This document shows positions 15,781 through 30,573 of a stretch of DNA of 64,000 nucleotides, one piece after another (the stretch's first letter is position 1; every line of letters starts with the position of its first letter). The stretch is from Geoalkalibacter subterraneus. GTDB taxonomy: Bacteria > Desulfobacterota > Desulfuromonadia > Desulfuromonadales > Geoalkalibacteraceae. The notes below the pieces were generated by a model. That model did not search any database and was not told where the DNA came from. It worked only from the letters and a program-made list of their open reading frames with translations. Location of the stretch: NCBI RefSeq assembly GCF_000827125.1, contig NZ_CP010311.1:2997001-3061000 (forward strand), written 5' to 3'. The translations under genes were made by a program, and so were the position numbers.

Positions 15781-16632
15781 TCAGCTACGGGCAGGCGGCG
15801 TCTCGCCGTAAGTCATTTTCAGGGCACGGCGCACCCGGGCCGTCAGACGCACCGGGTTGACCGGCTTAGCGATAAAGTCAAAGTAGCCCATATCAAGCAG
15901 TTGGGCTTCTTCTTCAGCCGTGGATTTGGAGGACATGGCCATCACGGGAATTCGGGCAGTGGTCGATTGATTTTTGAGGGCCCGGAACATTTCATACCCG
16001 TCCATGCGGGGCATGATCGTGTCGCTGATAATGAGATGAGGCTTATTCTGATGCGCCATCTTGAGACCTTCGGCGCCGTTTTCAGCCTGCAGGACGGTAT
16101 ACCCCTGCTTGCGCAACGCGGCGGCAGTGGCCGCCCGGGCCAGTTCCTGGTCCTCGACCACCAGAATCACCCACCAGTCCGAGCTGTCTTCTTCTTCCGA
16201 GGAAAAATAAAACTTTTCGACTGCCGCCTGAATCTCCGACGGCGTGGTCACACAGGGAATGATCTTGAGCCCCGAACCGAAAGTCAGGTTGTCGATGGTC
16301 GTCATATCCAGGGGGTTGACCATAGCGAGATAGAGATTTTTATCCTGGCGCTTAATGGGAAAAATCATCTTTTCCAGCGCCGTAGCGCCATCGATCTGGG
16401 CCAGCAGATCTTCAGAAAATGAATGGCGGGTCAGCCCGCTGACCGTCTTATATCCGAACTGGCGCGCCAGTACAACGGCGATGTCTTTTTCCGATACGAC
16501 GCCGAGTTCTTCAAGAATCTGCCCCAACCGTTTGCGGGATCCTTTCTGCATCTCCAGCGCCTGCGCCAACTGATCCTCTTTGACGGCGCCAGCCTCAACC
16601 AGAATTTCTCCAAAACGTTTGCGACGACTCAT
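15781..16632 (-). CDS. MshEN (GspE N-terminal)-receiver domain fusion protein
   Basis: 283 residues. Residues 1-150 are a GspE/PilB N-terminal type domain (RKRFGEILVEAGAVKEDQLAQAL and the repeated RLGQILEELGVVSEKDI motif), a module known in some relatives to bind cyclic di-GMP. Residues about 155-275 are a CheY-like receiver with the acidic pair (VVEDQE), the phospho-acceptor in IISDTIMP and FIAKP. There is no ATPase or output domain, so the protein may couple a phosphorelay to a type II secretion or type IV pilus motor (inference). ATG 16632 has a GGAG-containing leader. It is monocistronic. Confidence 0.85.
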   Translation of the reverse strand: MSRRKRFGEILVEAGAVKEDQLAQALEMQKGSRKRLGQILEELGVVSEKDIAVVLARQFGYKTVSGLTRHSFSEDLLAQIDGATALEKMIFPIKRQDKNLYLAMVNPLDMTTIDNLTFGSGLKIIPCVTTPSEIQAAVEKFYFSSEEEDSSDWWVILVVEDQELARAATAAALRKQGYTVLQAENGAEGLKMAHQNKPHLIISDTIMPRMDGYEMFRALKNQSTTARIPVMAMSSKSTAEEEAQLLDMGYFDFIAKPVNPVRLTARVRRALKMTYGETPPARS

Positions 16633-16793: not shown

Positions 16794-19430
16794 TCAGGCT
16801 TCCTCGGGGGCGTCCTCCTCCGGGTTTTCGTGCTCAACCCTCAGCTGACCGTCGGCTGCGTCGATCGTAATAACTGCGCCGTCCCGAATATCTCCGCCGA
16901 TAATGGCCCTGCCGATGCGCGTCTCCAGACCGTGCTGAAGATAACGCTTGAGAGGGCGGGCGCCGTAAACCGGATCATAGGCGGTTTCGGCAATGAAGGT
17001 CCGGGCGGCATCGGTCAGATTCAGTTGCAGGTGACGGCTCGCCAACCGCTTGCGCAGATCCTCGACCTGGAGATCGACAATCTGCTTGATCTCCTCGACG
17101 GTCAGGGGCGAGAAGAGCACCACGTCATCCACCCGGTTGAGAAATTCAGGGCGGAAATGCGCCCGCAGCTCTTTCATCACCAGATCCCGGGACTGATCCC
17201 TGATATGCCCCTGGTCGTCGACGCCTTCCAGCAGGTACTGACTGCCGATATTGCTGGTCATGATGATCACGGTATTTTTAAAGTCGACCGTACGCCCCTG
17301 GGCGTCGGTGACCCTGCCGTCGTCAAGAATCTGCAGCAGCACGTTGAATACATCGTTATGGGCCTTTTCGATCTCGTCGAAGAGAATGACGCTGTAGGGT
17401 TTGCGCCGTACCGCTTCGGTGAGCTGCCCCCCCTCTTCGTAGCCGACATAGCCGGGCGGTGCACCGACAAGGCGACTGACGGTATGCTTCTCCATGTACT
17501 CGGACATGTCGATACGCACCATATTGTCCTCGCTGTCGAACAGTGCCTCTGCCAGGGTACGGGCCAGTTCGGTCTTGCCCACCCCGGTGGGACCGAGAAA
17601 GATAAAGGAGCCGATAGGACGGCGAGGATCTTTGATGCCGGCCCGCGCACGAATGACCGCATCAGCCACCAGTTGCACCGCCTCATCCTGCCCGATGACG
17701 CGGCGATGGAGAACTTTATCGAGCTTCAACAGCTTCTCGCGCTCTCCTTCCACCAGGCGGGTCACGGGGATGCCGGTCCAGCGGGAGATAATTTCGGCGA
17801 TTTCCTCCTCCGTGACCTCTTCACGCAGTAGCCGGGGACCTCCTTTATCGGCACTGATGGCCGCTTCCTGTTCATGCAGCTGCCTCTCCAGCTCGGGCAG
17901 TCGCCCATGCTTGAGTTCCGCAGCCCGATTGAGGTTGTATTCACGCTCCGCAACCTCGATCTCCTGACGCACCTTTTCGATCTGCTCCCGCAGGGATTGA
18001 ACCTTCTTGATCCCCTCCTTTTCCGCGTCCCATTGGGCGCGCAGAGTGTCGGCCTGATGCTTGAGTTCGGCCAGCTCCTTGCGCAGGGCTTCCAGCCGGT
18101 CCTGGCTGGCGCGGTCCTTCTCCTTTTTAAGGGCCGCCTCCTCGATCTCGAGCTGCATTACGCGGCGCGTGACCTCGTCAAGTTCCTGGGGCATGGAATC
18201 AATTTCCGTGCGGATCATAGCGCAGGCTTCGTCGACCAGGTCGATGGCCTTGTCCGGCAGGAAGCGATCGGAAATATAGCGGTGACTCAGGGACGAAGCC
18301 GCAACCAAGGCATTATCATGAATGGCAACGCCGTGATGAACCTCGAAACGATCCTTGAGCCCGCGCAGAATGGAAACCGTGTCCTCCACCGTCGGCTGGT
18401 CGACCACTACCGGCTGGAAACGCCTCTCGAGAGCCGCATCTTTTTCAATGTATTTGCGATATTCATCGAGAGTGGTAGCCCCGATGCAGTGTAGCTCGCC
18501 TCGCGCCAGCATGGGTTTGAGCATGTTGCCCGCGTCCATGGAGCCTTCGGCCTTGCCGGCGCCGACGATGGTATGCAGCTCGTCGATGAAAAGCAGGATA
18601 CGCCCTTCACTCTCGCGGATTTCATTGAGAACCGCCTTGAGGCGCTCTTCGAACTCGCCGCGATATTTTGCGCCGGCGACCAGAGAACCCATATCGAGGG
18701 CAAAGATGGTCTTCTCCTTGAGTCCTTCAGGGACGTCTCCACGCACGATGCGCTGAGCAAGTCCTTCGACGATGGCGGTCTTGCCGACGCCGGGTTCGCC
18801 GATCAGCACCGGGTTGTTCTTGGTCTTGCGGGACAGAATGCGGATCACCCGGCGGATCTCTCCGTCGCGTCCGATGACCGGATCGAGTTTGCCCTTCTGG
18901 ACCTCTTCCACCAGATCGCGTCCGTATTTCTGCAACGCCTCATAGGTTCCTTCGGGATCGGCGCTGGAGACACGCTGATGGCCGCGAATCGAGGTCAAAG
19001 CCTGCAGAAGGCCATCACGCGTGACATTGAACTGCTTGAAGATCTTCCCCGCGGGGGTGGAGCCCCCCTCTTCCACCATAGCCAGCGCGATGTGCTCGAC
19101 GCTGACATAATCATCCTTGAGGCGTTTGGCTTCTTCCTCGGCCTTGATCAGGATGCGGTTGAAACGCTGGGTCACATAGATCTTGCCGGCTTCAACGCCC
19201 GGACCTGAAACGCTGGGTCGGCGCTCAAGCTCCTTTTTCAGTTCGGCGGCAAAGCTTGCAACCGGCACATCCATTTTAGTCAACAGGCGCGGAACAAGCC
19301 CGCCTTCCTGCTCCAAAAGCGCCGCCAGCAGATGCTCGCCGTCCACTTCGATGTGGCCATGAGTGAGCGCCTTATTCTGCGCCTGCTGCAGCGCTTCCTG
19401 GGTTTTACTGGTCAATTTGTTGAAATCCAT
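16794..19430 (-). CDS. clpB: ATP-dependent disaggregase ClpB
   Basis: 878 residues, near the usual family length of about 860. An N-terminal Clp repeat domain is followed by two AAA+ modules with Walker A motifs GEPGVGKT (about 203) and GPTGVGKT (about 606), separated by the long coiled-coil M-domain (about 410-525) that distinguishes ClpB from ClpA and ClpC. The enzyme rescues aggregated proteins together with DnaK. ATG 19430 has AAGGGG upstream. A sigma-54-like element lies 36 bases further up, directly behind the stop of an activator gene on the same strand. No CIRCE element or clear heat-shock promoter was seen in 19431-19623. Confidence 0.97.
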
Positions 19431-19465
19431 ATGGAATCCCCTTTCAAAATTCTGACTTCAAGGTT

Positions 19466-19481
19466 TTCAATTCCTGTGCCA
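19466..19481 (-). promoter_or_regulatory. Candidate sigma-54 promoter of clpB
   Basis: Reading on the minus strand, TGGCAC-N5-TTGAA matches the -24 box fully and the -12 box except for A in place of the C of GC. The predicted start is about 25 bases before the clpB ATG, which leaves room for the AAGGGG site. Confidence 0.4.
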
Positions 19482-19538
19482 CAAAAAAACTCCAAGCATA
19501 TCAAGGTATTAACCAGATCTCCATCCTGCACACAGCGC

Positions 19539-19580
19539 TTTTGCGACAGGTGCGACATTGCCCTGCAACGGTTTTGCGAC
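19539..19580. promoter_or_regulatory. Repeated TTTTGCGAC elements, possible activator sites for clpB
   Basis: TTTTGCGAC occurs at 19539-19547 and 19572-19580, 33 bases (three helical turns) apart, and the second copy lies inside GCAACG-N9-CGTTGC (19565-19585). They sit about 60 and 92 bases upstream of the sigma-54-like box, the usual distance for enhancer sites, between clpB and the activator gene. Confidence 0.4.
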
Positions 19581-19623
19581 GTTGCGCCGGGTCTCGTTGC
19601 ACCCATTCCCTGAAATCGAACCC

Positions 19624-21114
19624 TTACGTCAAATCTTCGCGCCGCAGACCGAGGCGTCGCATGTAGCGGTAAAGGGTGGCGCGATGCACACCAAGCAGTC
19701 GCGCCGCCGCGGCCAGGTTGCCATTCGCCGCCTGGTAGGCGTGACGGATCTCCTCTTCGTCCAGCTCCGCAGACTGCGTTCGACGCCTGGTGAAATTCAT
19801 CCCGCTCTCCCCACCCGTCGGGACCAGCTCGGCATCAAAGACCCGGCCTCCTCCTGCAGGCAGCGAACGCGTCCCACGCCCGGCAGTCCATGGGGTCAGT
19901 ACCGCCGGCTGGTTGCGGCGTCGCTCAACGCCGGCGTCAAGATCCCAGCTGCCGGGCGCAAAACTCTGCCGCTCCTCAATCCAGTCTCGAAAGGCGCGCG
20001 CCCCGATTACATCGGCGCGGGTTTCGACATAAACCCGTTCCAGCACATTGCGCAGCTCCCGGATGTTGCCTGGCCACAGGTAGGCCTGCAGCACCTGCAG
20101 AGCTTCCGGCGTCAGGCGATGAATCACGCGACCGTATTTGCGATTGAACATTTCGAGGAAATGATCGACCAGGAAGGGGATGTCCTCGATTCTTTCGCGC
20201 AGCGGCGGTATCTGGATGCGCAGGATGGCAATGCGGTGGTAGAGGTCCGCGCGAAAGCGCCCCTCGCTTACCGCGCGTTCCAGTGCGACGTTGGTGGCAC
20301 ACAGAACCCGCACATCAATCTCCTGCTCCTGCTCGCCGCCGACCCGTTCGATGCGCCGCTCTTCAAGCACCCGCAACAGCTTCGACTGGGTGTGCAGAGG
20401 CATATCGCCAATCTCATCCAGAAACAGACTGCCGCCATGAGCCCGTTCGAAACGGCCTCGGTGAGTGCGCAACGCTCCGGTAAACGCACCTTTTTCATGG
20501 CCGAACAGCTCAGATTCCATCAACTCCTCAGCAATAGCAGCACAGTTCATCACGACATAGGGGCCCGATCTGCGATCGCTTTCCAGGTGCAGCGCACGCG
20601 CGACCAGCTCTTTTCCGGTCCCGGTCTCGCCGGTGATGACTGCGGAGGCGTCCGACTCGGCATAGAGCTTTACTTTCCGAATCACCTCCGATACGGCAGA
20701 GCTGATGCCGACAATGCCGTGGAATTGATACGGCGCGCGGTCCTCCCCGGGCACAAGCGCCCGAAAAGAGAAAAAGACCTGCTGTCCCTTGTAATCCTCG
20801 GTGAGGCCGCCTGGATAAATAGTTGCCATAAGGTGAGTCTCCCCCCCTGGCGTCGCCATCCGCACGCGCACATCTTCCACCGCTTCTCCTGCCGACGCCA
20901 CATCCCGCGCCAGTTCACCCAAATCGGGGAGAGTCTGCCTGAAAACGGTGTTCAATGTACGGCCACGAGCCTGTCCCGCCGTGGTCCCCTGCAATTGTGC
21001 GAGATGGTCGGTAATCCGTTCCACACGCCAATGGCCTCCCTGACCGGAAACCACCAGATCGGGAACGGGTGCGGGAAGATTGGTTTGTTCAGTGAAAGGC
21101 TGGGTGAATGTCAT
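19624..21114 (-). CDS. Sigma-54-dependent transcriptional activator (PAS-AAA-Fis)
   Basis: 496 residues. An N-terminal PAS-like domain (about 20-125) precedes the AAA+ domain with Walker A GETGTGKE, an intact GAFTGA sigma-54 contact loop, and Walker B LFLDEIGD; a Fis-type helix-turn-helix (NLAAAARLLGVHRATLYRYM) closes the protein. Between the AAA+ domain and the HTH there is an unusually long linker of about 75 residues rich in Gly, Arg and Pro. It has no receiver domain, so its signal probably enters through the PAS domain. Its own stop lies 193 bases upstream of clpB on the same strand, which makes clpB the likeliest target. Confidence 0.92.
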   Translation of the reverse strand: MTFTQPFTEQTNLPAPVPDLVVSGQGGHWRVERITDHLAQLQGTTAGQARGRTLNTVFRQTLPDLGELARDVASAGEAVEDVRVRMATPGGETHLMATIYPGGLTEDYKGQQVFFSFRALVPGEDRAPYQFHGIVGISSAVSEVIRKVKLYAESDASAVITGETGTGKELVARALHLESDRRSGPYVVMNCAAIAEELMESELFGHEKGAFTGALRTHRGRFERAHGGSLFLDEIGDMPLHTQSKLLRVLEERRIERVGGEQEQEIDVRVLCATNVALERAVSEGRFRADLYHRIAILRIQIPPLRERIEDIPFLVDHFLEMFNRKYGRVIHRLTPEALQVLQAYLWPGNIRELRNVLERVYVETRADVIGARAFRDWIEERQSFAPGSWDLDAGVERRRNQPAVLTPWTAGRGTRSLPAGGGRVFDAELVPTGGESGMNFTRRRTQSAELDEEEIRHAYQAANGNLAAAARLLGVHRATLYRYMRRLGLRREDLT

Positions 21115-21324: not shown

Positions 21325-21606
21325 TCAATGGGTGACCTGCACAAGCGCGCCGGCGGAGCGCGCCCGGGCGGTCAGGGCGGCACGGCACATGGCCTGAGCC
21401 GAAGTGACCCCCCGGCCCGAAGCGACCACTTCACCCGAAGCCGGATTGAGGACCAGATACTCGACCTGGCCGTCAATGGTACGGCCGCCGAAGCGATAAG
21501 GCACACCAAGGCGCGCCAGAACCGACCAGGCCCCGTTGAAGTCTACTTCCGGGTTACGAGCGTCATTTTCTTCCCACAACTGTACCGCGATCAGTTTGTT
21601 CCTCAT
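21325..21606 (-). CDS. Conserved-looking hypothetical protein
   Basis: 93 residues from ATG 21606, chosen because GGAGGCAGCC stands directly before it; an upstream start at 21654 would add 16 residues. The protein is soluble and basic, with a segment that could be a small beta-rich domain (PYRFGGRTIDGQVEYLVLNP) and an Ala-rich C-terminal helix. I do not recognise a family. Good ribosome site, codon use like its neighbours and a terminator downstream argue that it is real. The 21655-21796 gap upstream is AT-rich and shows no clear promoter. Confidence 0.6.
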   Translation of the reverse strand: MRNKLIAVQLWEENDARNPEVDFNGAWSVLARLGVPYRFGGRTIDGQVEYLVLNPASGEVVASGRGVTSAQAMCRAALTARARSAGALVQVTH

Positions 21607-21796
21607 GGCTGCCTCCATCATGGTCTTACCCATAAAGGGTAGAAAATATCCCACATCTAATAACCAATGCAGTATTTTTTTCTACTTATGGTTCACCATT
21701 ATACTCCGGTTCGGAGAAATGCCAAGCGGAAAATGAAGAAAAAAAGACGTGAAATCAGAAGAGTCGACTTAGTTTCAACAGAGATGGCTTCTTGAC

Positions 21797-22905: not shown

Positions 22906-25014
22906 TCAGCCGATACGAACCGGCTTCAGAATGCGGGCTCGCACCATCAGGTAAACAAACTTGTAGACCTCGAAGTCGAGCATGGTGGCCTCCCGACAAA
23001 TGGTCTTGAGATCGCGACGCCCGTCGATCAGATCCAGCACCGCCTGCTGATGCTCCGTCATGCGGGCCCCGGCGAGCTTCTCCCGCCCCTGCTCGTCGAA
23101 ATCGAGAACCGTCTCCAGCGATGGGATCGCTTTGCGCAACCCGGCCCACTCCTCTTCATGCCGCGCTGCCTCATCGAGCAGGTCATTGACCCGCAGTTCC
23201 AAATCATCGACCGGGTCGACACCGGAATCTTCATTCAGCATTTTGAACCGGCCCTGGGGAAACAGGAACAGCGAGAAAACGACCCCTTCAGCCTGTGTGC
23301 GCAAAGCCTGCTTGAGATCGCCCGGTGCAAGGGCGTTCATCTCAACTAGCGTTTCCCCCAATCGGCGCTGCGGATTTGTGGCACACAGCTCCAGGGCCTG
23401 ATCCCGCTGCTCCTCGCTGATCAGTCCCATGCGCACCAGCAGGTAGCCGAGCTTATTCATGAGGAAACCGCTGCGCGCGCCGCTTTCATAATTTACCGAA
23501 TAAGCGGCGGCGATTTTTCCCAGCCGGAAATGGATACGCTTCTCATCATGGGAGCCACGCACGATGAGCGTTCCAGGCCTGGAGCAGCTCCCGATCATCC
23601 GCAGCAGGGATGAAACCTGAAAAAGGTCGAGCGTCCCAGCCAGTTCAGAGGGAGGATCAGAATCACCCTTCAATTTTTCCCCAGTCGAAGCCGTGTTTTC
23701 ACGGGGGGAAACGGCTGGTGCGGGCTCAGTGGGGCGTGCCGATTTTGCTGATCGAGCCTGCATCCGCTGTGCACGGGCCTCGGCATAGAGCCCTTCGCCG
23801 TCAGGGGCATCGGCGGGGATATGGATATAACCATCTTCGTCCCGGTTATCGGATGGTTTTTGTTCCATTTGCGCCAAAACCTGCCGGGCACGCCGGCGGC
23901 GGAAAAACAACAACGTGAAGGTCAGCGCAGACAGCACGATCACAGCGTCGATCAGTTTGCGCCCGAGAGGAATACTGTCCCGTTCGCTGTTATCGGCGGC
24001 GGGAGAGAGGCGAGGTTGACTCTCCGGCGTGGAAGACGGTTCAGCAGCAGGCTCCCGGGGCACTTCTACCTGGGGAGAGGAAATCTCAGAAAACACTTCC
24101 TGCGACGGCTTCGACTCTTCCTTTTCGGCTTGGGGCAACCAGATGCGCGGCGCGGATTCCGACGGCGCCTGCCGGTCAGTTGTTTCGACTCCATCGGAGC
24201 CTGGTGCGGCTTCCGGCTTGGCTTCCGGCTTGGCTTCCGGCTTGGCTTCCGGCTTGGCTTCCGGCTTGGCTTCCGGCTTGGCTTCCGGCTTGGCTTCCGG
24301 CTTGGCTTCCGGCTTGGCTTCCGGCTTGGCTTCCGGCTTGGGCTCCGGCTTGGGCTCCGGCTTGGGCTCCGGCTTGGGCTCCGGCTTGGGCTCCGGCTTG
24401 GGCTCCGGCGTGGGCTCCGGCTTGGGCTCCGGCTTGGGCTCCGGCTTGGGCTCCGCCCTTGCGGGCGCAATAAATTCAGTTGCTCTCGGCAGTCCCGAAC
24501 CGACCGCCACAAAGCTCTCCAGTTCGAAACGCTGCAGCAGCCGGCGCCCGGCGGGTTCGTCATCCATCGACATCAGGGCCTGATGGATGGCATCCAGGCT
24601 TCGGGAGGTAAGCCCCTGGCGGGCGATTCCAAGGAGAGGAGACAACTGCCTTCGGCCCAGGATCTGGAGATCCACCAGATGGAGGAATTCGCCGGCAGGT
24701 CGCTGACGCACAAAGTCCATGTGAACAAAGGCTATATCGACTTCGCGATGGCGGTTCATCCAGGTGTACAGAGTTTCGGGTTCGCGAAACATGTGCACCT
24801 GAACCGGCTGGTCCAGCTTTTGCGCCAGGTATTCGCTCAAAGCCTTCATGTTCTGCGCGTTGCCGGAAAAACCTTCACTGCCCTCGATGCCCCCAACAGC
24901 CAGACGTGCATAGGCACCGGTCGCGGCAAACAGCAGAAGGGATAAGATCAGAACAATGCGCGCGCAGAAATTTCCGCTCACAAAAACACCCGCCAGGAAA
25001 ATCCGCCCCTTCAT
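22906..25014 (-). CDS. Composite membrane protein: PhnD-like domain, EPKP/EAKP tract, TM, DUF4388
   Basis: About 702 residues. A signal peptide is followed by about 130 residues resembling a shortened periplasmic substrate-binding protein of the PhnD type ([20 protein letters not shown] and [10 protein letters not shown]). Next comes a low-complexity tract of about 85 residues built from Glu-Pro-Lys-Pro and Glu-Ala-Lys-Pro units, then a disordered Pro/Ser region, one membrane helix ([18 protein letters not shown]), and a cytoplasmic part with a DUF4388 (PATAN) domain ([18 protein letters not shown]). This architecture suggests a ligand sensor coupling the periplasm to an intracellular adaptor; that is inference. 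The start is uncertain: ATG 25014 lacks a good ribosome site, GTG 24981 is better placed, and an upstream GTG at 25083 is also open. Confidence 0.75.
24208..24456. repeat. 12-bp coding satellite (about 20 units)
   Basis: Eleven copies of GGCTTCCGGCTT are followed by nine of GGGCTCCGGCTT. On the minus strand they encode Glu-Ala-Lys-Pro and Glu-Pro-Lys-Pro units. Near-identity within each block indicates slippage expansion. The unit is related to that in tonB at 5361-5552. Confidence 0.9.
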
Positions 25015-25158
25015 CACGAATATCGATGCGCTTAGTGGACGGAGTGAGAAATCAGACTTTATGTGGTGAGGCCACCTCCCCACTGTAATTATTAAAGCCT
25101 AATTTATCAAGCGTGTTTTGCGGCAGAGCGCTAAAAAAGTACCATTTCTCAACGTGAT

Positions 25159-28344: not shown

Positions 28345-30573
28345 CTAAAACCGGCCGTATTTTCGGCGCAGGCGTTGTCGTACGATCTCCGCCACCGTAT
28401 TAAGAACAAAAGTCATCAGAAACAGAATCACGGCGGAAAGAAACAGGACCCGGTAAAGGGTTCCGGCTACCGGCGCCTCCGGTATCTCCACCGCAATGTT
28501 GGCGGACAGAGGGCGCATGCCGTTGAACAGGCTCCAGTCCATGATCGCCGTGTTGCCGGTCGCCATGAGGACAATCATGGTCTCGCCGATGGCACGGCCG
28601 AAACCGATCATCGTTCCCGCGAATATGCCGGGGCTGGCCGAAGGCAGCACCACCCGCCAGGCGGTCTGCCAGCGGCTGGCCCCCATGGCGAGAGAGGCCG
28701 CCCTCAGACTGCTCGGCACATTGGAGAGGGAATCCTCGGCAATGGTGAAAATGATGGGAATAACGGCAAATCCCAGAGCAAAAGCAATGACGATGCTGTT
28801 GCGCGGGTCGTAACGCACGCCCGCTTCCTGAAACATCCAGAGGGTGAAATTGCCGTCGAACAGGGTCAGCTCCAGGTAAGGACCCAGCCGCAGCGCAATA
28901 TAGACAGCCAGAACCAGCACGGGGATCAGGGTCAGAAACTCCCATCCGCGTTCAATGCGCTTGAGGACTGAAATCTTGCGCAGGGCTTGCCAGGCAAGGA
29001 CCCCCACCAGCAGGAAGGTCGGCAGCAGGGCGGCACTTAGAAAAAATCCGACGATGCTGCGCTCGAGAAGCGGCGCAAACCACAGCGCAGCGAGAAAACC
29101 GATAATGACCGTGGGGATCGCCGCCATGATTTCCACTGTCGGCTTGATAAAAGCCCGGAAAGCGGGGCGGGCGAAATTGCTCGTGTAGATGGCGCCGAGC
29201 AGCGCCAGGGGGACGGCAAACAGCATGGCATAGGCCGTCCCCTTGATTGTGCCGAAGATCAGAGGGGTGAGGCTCATCTTCGGCTCGAAATCGTCGGAGC
29301 CGGATGAAGACTGCCAGACGTATTCCGGCTTGTCGTAGCTTTCATACCAGACCTTGCCGAACAGCGTCTGGACACTGATTTCCGGGTGGGGGTTGTCCAC
29401 CCTCCAGACGATGGCTTCGCCGCGTTCGTCGATTCCCACCACCCCGTTGTTGCGGGAACTGAGCCCGACCAGCCGCACCGGATGCATCCCCGAAAGGGTC
29501 AGCAGATGTCTTTCGCTCGTCATATGATCGTAATGCACCGTCCCGTCGGCACCAATGCTGAGCAGCGACTTGTCGCGCCGCGAAGGGACCAGTTCCGTAA
29601 CCGCTTCAACGTGCGACCTGAGCTTGTGAATGAGGCGCAGGCGGCGCTCGCCCTCTTCCGTCTCACGCACTCCGAACCAGGTGCTGACGCCGCCTTTCTC
29701 ATCACCGACCGCCAGCGATATATCCCCGTAAACAAGAGCCAGCGCCGTAATGGCGCGCCGGTCGGAAAAAGCCTCGACCGTCTCCACCAGCTGCGCGTCC
29801 TGGTCCTCCGACACATTCCAGTGCAGAAGCCGTCCATCGGCAGTCCCGGCGTAAATATTCGAACCATGGGAATCCACGGTCAGGGCGGTTATGGCGGAAT
29901 CAGCGGCGTCATCGAGGACATGGCTGATCTCTTCCGTGCTTTCATTGCCGAAAAGATCGCTGACCGTCAACCTGCGCAGTACCTGGACCCGGTTGTCCTG
30001 CAGCAGATCTACCCGTACAGCGCGGCCCTCCCCGGTTCGCGCCAGGGAACGCTGCGGAACAGGCTCCAGGGCGGGGAAAACAGCTTCCTGGGTCACCTCA
30101 TAGCGCAGCGTGCGCACCCCGGCGTCGTCAAAATGGGTCTTGAAGTGAATGCGATCCAGCGATAGCGCCCCATCGCTCCACAGCGTGGCAAAACGCGATC
30201 CGTCTCCGCCCCACTCGATACGCCGTGGCAACGCTGTCGGGCTCCCGGGAGAAGCCAGCTCTACCTCCGCGCGCAACTCCGCTGTATTATTGTCGAAGAT
30301 GCGCACCTTGCCCGCCGAGGTGATCACAAAGGCATTCTCAAGGTACTCGTCGATCCCCGTCGCCAGAATCTGCTCGTCTTCAGCCAGCGGATCGGTCACC
30401 CTGTATTTGGCGAAAATCTCCGCCTCGGGGTCCTTGAACAGGGGCAGACTGACCTCGGCGATCAGCACCAGAATAAAGATGACGCAGAAAATAACGGAAA
30501 ACCCTCCGGCGGTAATCAACCAGCGTGCCAGACGGTCCCTGCGTTTGATTCGTTTCAGCAGGTTTTGATCCAT
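28345..30573 (-). CDS. pstC: Phosphate ABC transporter permease PstC with N-terminal propeller-like domain
   Basis: 742 residues against about 320 in E. coli. Helix 1 (about 18-40) is followed by a periplasmic region of about 370 residues with WD40-like repeats (VRIFDNNTAELRAE, GRLLHWNVSED, VTELVPSRRDKSLLSIGADGTVHYD), then the permease core from about residue 440 with LAMGASRWQTAWRVVLPSASPGIFAG as coupling motif. Long PstC forms with such an insert occur in Pseudomonas and related proteobacteria; the propeller's role is unknown. It is separated from pstS by a gap with two strong hairpins. Confidence 0.94.
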   Translation of the reverse strand: MDQNLLKRIKRRDRLARWLITAGGFSVIFCVIFILVLIAEVSLPLFKDPEAEIFAKYRVTDPLAEDEQILATGIDEYLENAFVITSAGKVRIFDNNTAELRAEVELASPGSPTALPRRIEWGGDGSRFATLWSDGALSLDRIHFKTHFDDAGVRTLRYEVTQEAVFPALEPVPQRSLARTGEGRAVRVDLLQDNRVQVLRRLTVSDLFGNESTEEISHVLDDAADSAITALTVDSHGSNIYAGTADGRLLHWNVSEDQDAQLVETVEAFSDRRAITALALVYGDISLAVGDEKGGVSTWFGVRETEEGERRLRLIHKLRSHVEAVTELVPSRRDKSLLSIGADGTVHYDHMTSERHLLTLSGMHPVRLVGLSSRNNGVVGIDERGEAIVWRVDNPHPEISVQTLFGKVWYESYDKPEYVWQSSSGSDDFEPKMSLTPLIFGTIKGTAYAMLFAVPLALLGAIYTSNFARPAFRAFIKPTVEIMAAIPTVIIGFLAALWFAPLLERSIVGFFLSAALLPTFLLVGVLAWQALRKISVLKRIERGWEFLTLIPVLVLAVYIALRLGPYLELTLFDGNFTLWMFQEAGVRYDPRNSIVIAFALGFAVIPIIFTIAEDSLSNVPSSLRAASLAMGASRWQTAWRVVLPSASPGIFAGTMIGFGRAIGETMIVLMATGNTAIMDWSLFNGMRPLSANIAVEIPEAPVAGTLYRVLFLSAVILFLMTFVLNTVAEIVRQRLRRKYGRF

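Follow-up and report, generated by a model that had tools for sequence, protein, structure and literature searches.

The control of bacterial disaggregases is generally ascribed to sigma-32, whose promoter consensus reads CTTGAAA/CCCCATNTA, or to repressors such as HrcA or CtsR; in proteobacteria, clpB belongs to the classical RpoH targets. NtrC, PspF and XylR are examples of bacterial enhancer-binding proteins, and an enhancer-driven sigma-54 switch with its own nearby activator is an unusual wiring for heat-shock genes. For Xylella, clpB is stated to be an RpoH target (PMC3224663), and enhancer-binding proteins are set in a general scheme with IHF-assisted sigma-54 promoters (PMC6389857). 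The clpB locus in the window (the whole 64-kb stretch of DNA analysed here) resembles the known IHF-assisted sigma-54 systems in a GAFTGA-bearing AAA+ core, a Fis-type HTH, upstream palindromes, an IHF-like site and a GG at -24, but differs from them in its targets, which are heat-shock chaperones, in the missing C at -12, and in its PAS sensor.

Several described cases come closer to a sigma-54-controlled chaperone. A sigma-54 promoter has been ascribed to E. coli ibpB (PMC4316790), which is disputed by ChIP (PMC4591121); this case is alike in that a small heat-shock gene is ascribed to sigma-54, whereas the ibpB promoter is a second one inside a sigma-32 operon and the window system has a predicted dedicated activator and enhancer. 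In Bacteroidota and Planctomycetota, chaperones including COG0071 (IbpA) and COG0542 fall within predicted sigma-54 regulons (PMC12316311), but these are promoter-matrix predictions in other phyla, and the accessible part of that paper names no dedicated activator or operator for the chaperones. Chaperone and stress genes of Geobacter sulfurreducens changed on RpoN overexpression, with no sigma-54 element found for them, and the promoter consensus given there, TTGGCACGGTTTTTGCT, has a C at -12, unlike the window module (PMC2725144). The available part of the D. vulgaris sigma-54 regulome holds no Hsp20 or Clp entry (PMC4641369). Within the open literature, as far as its accessible text extends, no report of the sHSP-ClpB sigma-54 regulon proposed below was found.

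In the window, clpB and the activator gene both lie on the minus strand, with the activator upstream and a gap of 193 bp between them (Table 1). The clpB gene itself is the single match to the window ClpB in its own genome at E<=1e-200. A sequence-only reading of this stretch had placed a TGGCAC-N5-TTGAA element 36 bases ahead of clpB; the element is present, with the TGGCAC of its -24 box at 19481-19476, and the distance needs correcting, to 35 bases from the ATG at 19430. The TTTTGCGAC repeats reported three helical turns apart are likewise there in two copies with a spacing of 33 bp (19539-19547 and 19572-19580, plus strand), with no further copies in the 64 kb, and correspond to GTCGCAAAA half-sites of a palindrome, TTGCGACGTCGCAA, read on the other strand.

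Table 1. Features of the window clpB locus, with the CIRCE elements found elsewhere in the same genome (window coordinates unless a contig is given).
Feature	Position	Strand	Basis or remark
clpB (878 aa)	16794..19430	-	ORF list, Pfam
Ribosome-binding site AAAGGGGA	19437..19444	-	Read from sequence
Predicted clpB transcription start	19455	-	By convention, 11 bases past the last -12-box base
Sigma-54-type promoter TGGCACAGGAATTGAA, TGGCAC-AGGAA-TTGAA	19466..19481	-	Variant -12 without C
IHF-consensus match TAATACCTTGATA	19499..19511	-	Consensus YAANNNNTTGATW, 0 mismatches
Extra half-site GTCGCAAAA	19539..19547	-	The nearer TTTTGCGAC of the sequence-only reading
Putative proximal degenerate enhancer site GGGCAATGTCGCAC	19550..19563	-	5 mismatches to TTGCGACGTCGCAA; start -82 from -24 box
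Putative distal enhancer palindrome GCGCAACGTCGCAA	19574..19587	-	3 mismatches to TTGCGACGTCGCAA; start -106 from -24 box
Activator gene (496 aa)	19624..21114	-	PAS-fold N-terminus, sigma-54 AAA+ with GAFTGA, Fis-type HTH
Perfect CIRCE elements (L265-L267)	G000:C1:84156-84182, 314812-314838, 884922-884948		Outside the window

Taken singly, these elements are unremarkable. TGGCACAGGAATTGAA is the sole exact TGGCACN5TTGMA match in the 64 kb, and tolerating one mismatch raises the count to 3 vs 2.74 by chance, so the promoter string alone is not significant. The two TTTTGCGAC copies compare with 0.77 expected and are not significant alone either (at least 2 copies in 13/100 shuffles), and the palindrome alone is within chance for 64 kb. 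Joined at the spacing derived from relatives, the elements form the pattern GTCGCAN{62,82}TGGCAYN5TTG, which has a single match in the window, at the clpB gap, where 0.01 is expected (1/100 shuffles).

The activator has the marks of a bacterial enhancer-binding protein, namely a sigma-54 AAA+ domain with GAFTGA and a Fis-type HTH, with Pfam matches to PF00158 (E 3.5e-68), PF25601 and PF02954 (E 6.4e-08); GAFTGA is kept in the orthologue alignment, with GSFTGA in 1/28 rows. That a PAS-type sigma-54 activator gene sits directly upstream of clpB was thus rightly called, the PAS assignment resting on predicted fold: residues 1-132 are modelled as a PAS (pLDDT 85.5), in the PDB this N-terminus finds its best matches among PAS/LOV domains (from E 9.5e-05 upwards), and no Pfam PAS model matched the protein at E<=0.001. 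The invariant residues in a 27-row alignment of the PAS part are L13, P14, P18, D19, P63, L65 and L68. Since none of them is a Cys or His, nothing points to a conserved haem or flavin ligand. The orthologues hardly vary in the recognition-helix region, LGVHRATLYR, which fits a single operator common to them. The orthologue alignment omitted the partial L138 and L139, and the second, PAS-part alignment also omitted L136, the C-terminus of which is frameshifted or misread. A wider contig scan with the activator gave 80 loci at 36–56% identity, mostly in the AAA+ core (motifs like FLDEIGDM), and was left unused, and querying plasmids with the activator DNA returned nothing beyond a short glnG match.

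Activator orthologues, about 51–71% identical, occur in 30/40 relatives. Of the 75 same-order genomes in a 146-genome sample of the class, 59 match the activator (E<=1e-150), as against none of the others, 67 of the genomes without an activator match being assumed to lie outside the window's order. The clpB gene falls within the fetched region at 23/30 activator loci; it directly follows the activator in the window and in L112-L115, which belong to the same family, and in many other families the two are separated by hsp20 genes (activator-hsp20-hsp20-clpB). The gaps behind the activator orthologues carry two copies of TTGCGACGTCGCAA, and the module in relatives runs as two palindromes, then a TGGCAY-N5-NTG box, then hsp20 or clpB. 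We tabulated 33 such modules from 28 genomes. The proximal palindrome (<=4 mismatches) is found in 27/33, its start lying between -82 and -84 relative to the -24 box in 20 of these 27, and the palindrome-to-palindrome distance is 31–34 bp in 21/24 modules having both. The exact palindrome was found in 5/40 genomes only, and the window palindromes, with 3 and 5 mismatches, are among the more degenerate in the table.

The window's own genome holds a second, cleaner module ahead of a pair of Hsp20 genes that lie some 30 kb beyond the window, with TTGCGACGTTGCAG at -118, CTGTCACGTCGCAA at -84, and the box TGGCACGCGCCTTGAT. One 2-mismatch place in a palindrome scan of this genome led to it; the scan at <=3 mismatches was itself uninformative (116 places per strand vs 241 for the reversed control). 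Modules linked to clpB occur in G000 (the window's genome) to G005, G009 and G013; G020 has one with a TGGTAT box, and three genomes of another family (L238, L254, L259) have one that was recognised by eye. At the latter three loci, clpB stands directly behind the activator as in the window, and the sites are nearer TGCAACGTTGCA; in this arrangement hsp20 may have been lost independently. TGGTAT replaces TGGCAY in otherwise typical modules of three genomes (G020, G052, G087; L233, L241, L270). These variants, the modules of G019 and G020, and those of the held-out genomes all lie outside the 33-module table, and G021 shows half-sites only.

The recurrence of the module at chaperone genes was examined against several controls. 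Searched blind with the pattern, 40 genomes returned 34 matches at 33 places, 20 of which are at hsp20 or clpB; the remaining 13 (12 were examined for hsp20 or clpB, with G018:C1:2262143 excluded from the examination) compare with 11 places for the reversed pattern, and a broad regulon was rejected on these numbers. With the rule fixed on the first set, held-out regions showed the module in 20/34, all 20 ahead of hsp20, against 14/680 shuffled regions. Two held-out loci gave one extra match each inside clpB, which we take as chance, and 7 of the 14 held-out misses show variants by eye (L231, L233, L238, L241, L253, L254, L259).

The module also travels with the activator. It is present in 29/30 activator-bearing genomes, a count that takes in G019 and G020 (found on inspection) and G021 (half-sites), vs 1/10 genomes without the activator (p 4e-7), and by the blind pattern alone in 18/30 vs 1/10 (p 0.009); as all rows are related by descent, both p-values overstate the association. 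The one activator-bearing genome of the 30 without the module is G025, and the one genome with the module where no activator orthologue was found is G033, a 640-contig assembly. In nine of the activator-less genomes, no site with <=3 mismatches lies in the stretch of at most 350 bp examined upstream of clpB; the tenth, G012, was excluded from this check, as its clpB start is missing.

The promoter element itself departs from the textbook form. It has the GG at -24 within TGGCAC, and in place of the GC at -12 (TTGCW) the window has TTGAA. Because GGCAY at -24 and TG at -14/-13 were prescribed in the table search, their conservation is in part built in; the flanks of GGCAY were left free and show a T before in 29/33 modules and a G after in 27/33. 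No base was prescribed at -12 either (in most of the 33 rows the following base had to be A, T or G), and a C is absent there in 33/33 modules (A in 19, T in 12, G in 2). For comparison, a C stands at -12 in 22/61 other TGGCACGN4TTGNW matches from 13 genomes, these 61 being what remained of 69 after 8 module promoters, recognised by place and sorted by hand, were removed. Given the absent -12 C, we speak of a promoter of sigma-54 type whose -12 element is a variant, not of a textbook member. The genome encodes rpoN, and sigma-54 control here would put the strictness of the -12 GC rule in this lineage in question.

Between the putative enhancer sites and the promoter lies a perfect match to the IHF consensus, starting at -30 and equalled in 2/200 mononucleotide shuffles. 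Weak IHF-like matches cluster at -43 to -39 in 20/33 modules, compared with a mean of 4.3 and a maximum of 10/33 over 200 rounds of dinucleotide shuffling, and smaller peaks occur one helical turn to either side.

Other heat-shock regulators are at hand in the same genome and its relatives: RpoH is above the cut-off in 34/40, the window's genome (G000) included, and HrcA is found in 40/40. Both HrcA/CIRCE and RpoH likewise control chaperone genes, but CIRCE is located at hrcA, groES and rpoH and not at clpB. A search of G000 with up to 3 mismatches returned exactly these three places, all perfect, while upstream of clpB even the best match deviates at 8 positions; CIRCE control of clpB was rejected, in agreement with the sequence-only reading, which had seen no CIRCE element. 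The presence of CIRCE ahead of rpoH itself is less expected than at hrcA and groES. That reading had also seen no clear sigma-32 element at clpB, and our scan bears this out, the best sigma-32-like score being matched in 46/100 shuffles (the consensus of this lineage may diverge) and the best sigma-70-like score in the clpB gap in 76/100. A promoter scanner gave no sigma-70-like site in this gap. Across eight clpB upstream regions, no sigma-32 or sigma-70 match was clearly above shuffles, the best being a sigma-70-like match in G005 reached by 6/100 shuffles, and a clear promoter of either class at clpB was rejected. As CIRCE is found only elsewhere and no sigma-32/70 match at clpB rises above shuffles, control appears to be split, with HrcA acting on the folding genes and sigma-54 on the disaggregation set.

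The comparative evidence, with the module recurring at hsp20 and clpB, supports the proposal that RpoN controls clpB via the adjoining activator, and we consider it very probable that the window clpB is driven in this manner. In the proposed mechanism, the activator would bind the degenerate TTGCGACGTCGCAA palindromes upstream of clpB, IHF would bend the DNA between enhancer and promoter, and the AAA+ domain, through its GAFTGA loop, would remodel RNA polymerase-sigma-54 poised at TGGCAC-N5-TTGAA, with clpB then transcribed from about position 19455. The same activator would drive the hsp20-hsp20 operon elsewhere in the genome, and the sHSP-ClpB switch would work beside RpoH and HrcA/CIRCE. 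On these sequence comparisons, the clpB control region belongs to a conserved regulon that exceeds the one originally proposed and would take in hsp20, probably its main and ancestral target; further additions to that picture are an IHF-like site between enhancer and promoter and a -12 box that deviates throughout. The protein is best read as a PAS activator of the one-component type that would serve the sHSP-ClpB disaggregation system alone. If true, this would make an ATP-gated sHSP/ClpB switch a third heat-shock layer with a tight off-state, and would assign a function to an otherwise anonymous activator together with an exact candidate operator.

Three alternatives bear on this interpretation. 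The locus could be a promoter-like string plus short repeats without meaning, as each window element singly is within chance; the excess of the combined pattern over expectation and the recurrence of its geometry in relatives and held-out genomes make this scarcely credible. A second possibility is that heat-shock transcription of clpB is mainly the work of RpoH or sigma-70, with the sigma-54 module as a second, minor or condition-specific promoter. RpoH is present in the genome and could read clpB from a promoter that the scan misses, but the eight clpB regions lack a sigma-32/70 match clearly above shuffles, and conservation lies in the features of the sigma-54 module; we regard this as improbable.

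The third alternative concerns the signal. That the trigger is protein damage or proteotoxic stress is a guess drawn from the targets. Redox state, oxygen and small molecules are frequent inputs of PAS domains, and the activator N-terminus has a predicted PAS fold, so that activator and module may be real while the PAS reads redox, oxygen, energy or starvation, with sHSP and ClpB made under those conditions. Against this stand the lack of an invariant Cys or His in the PAS part and the restriction of the targets to disaggregation genes, neither of which is decisive, and we give this explanation a substantial chance, somewhat short of even. More doubtful, in our estimation, is a stand-alone heat-shock pathway specific to the order, in which the PAS activator would sense aggregation and switch on only the disaggregation set via a sigma-54 promoter with a re-tuned -12, apart from the HrcA/CIRCE folding branch (hrcA, groES, rpoH); under such a pathway the activator might, for example, be freed from inhibition once damaged protein titrates sHSP, ClpB or DnaK.

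Some neighbouring features of the window were also noted. On the minus strand at 30515-30530, TGGCACGCTGGTTGAT occurs in a phosphate-transport region, and is probably chance, as it falls within the beginning of an ORF (28345-30573). The gene at 22906-25083 (minus strand) encodes a 725-aa protein that has long PEPK/PEAK repeats as well as a DUF4388 domain. Upstream of the activator, a 109-aa protein with no Pfam match (21325-21654, minus strand) is found in 5 same-family regions (L111-L115) and in 0 of the other 24. Directly downstream of clpB lies a gene for an MshEN-plus-receiver protein (15781-16632, minus strand), full-length relatives of which occur in 15/29 fetched regions of relatives, nearly always beside clpB, and this protein is a possible partner of the sHSP-ClpB system.
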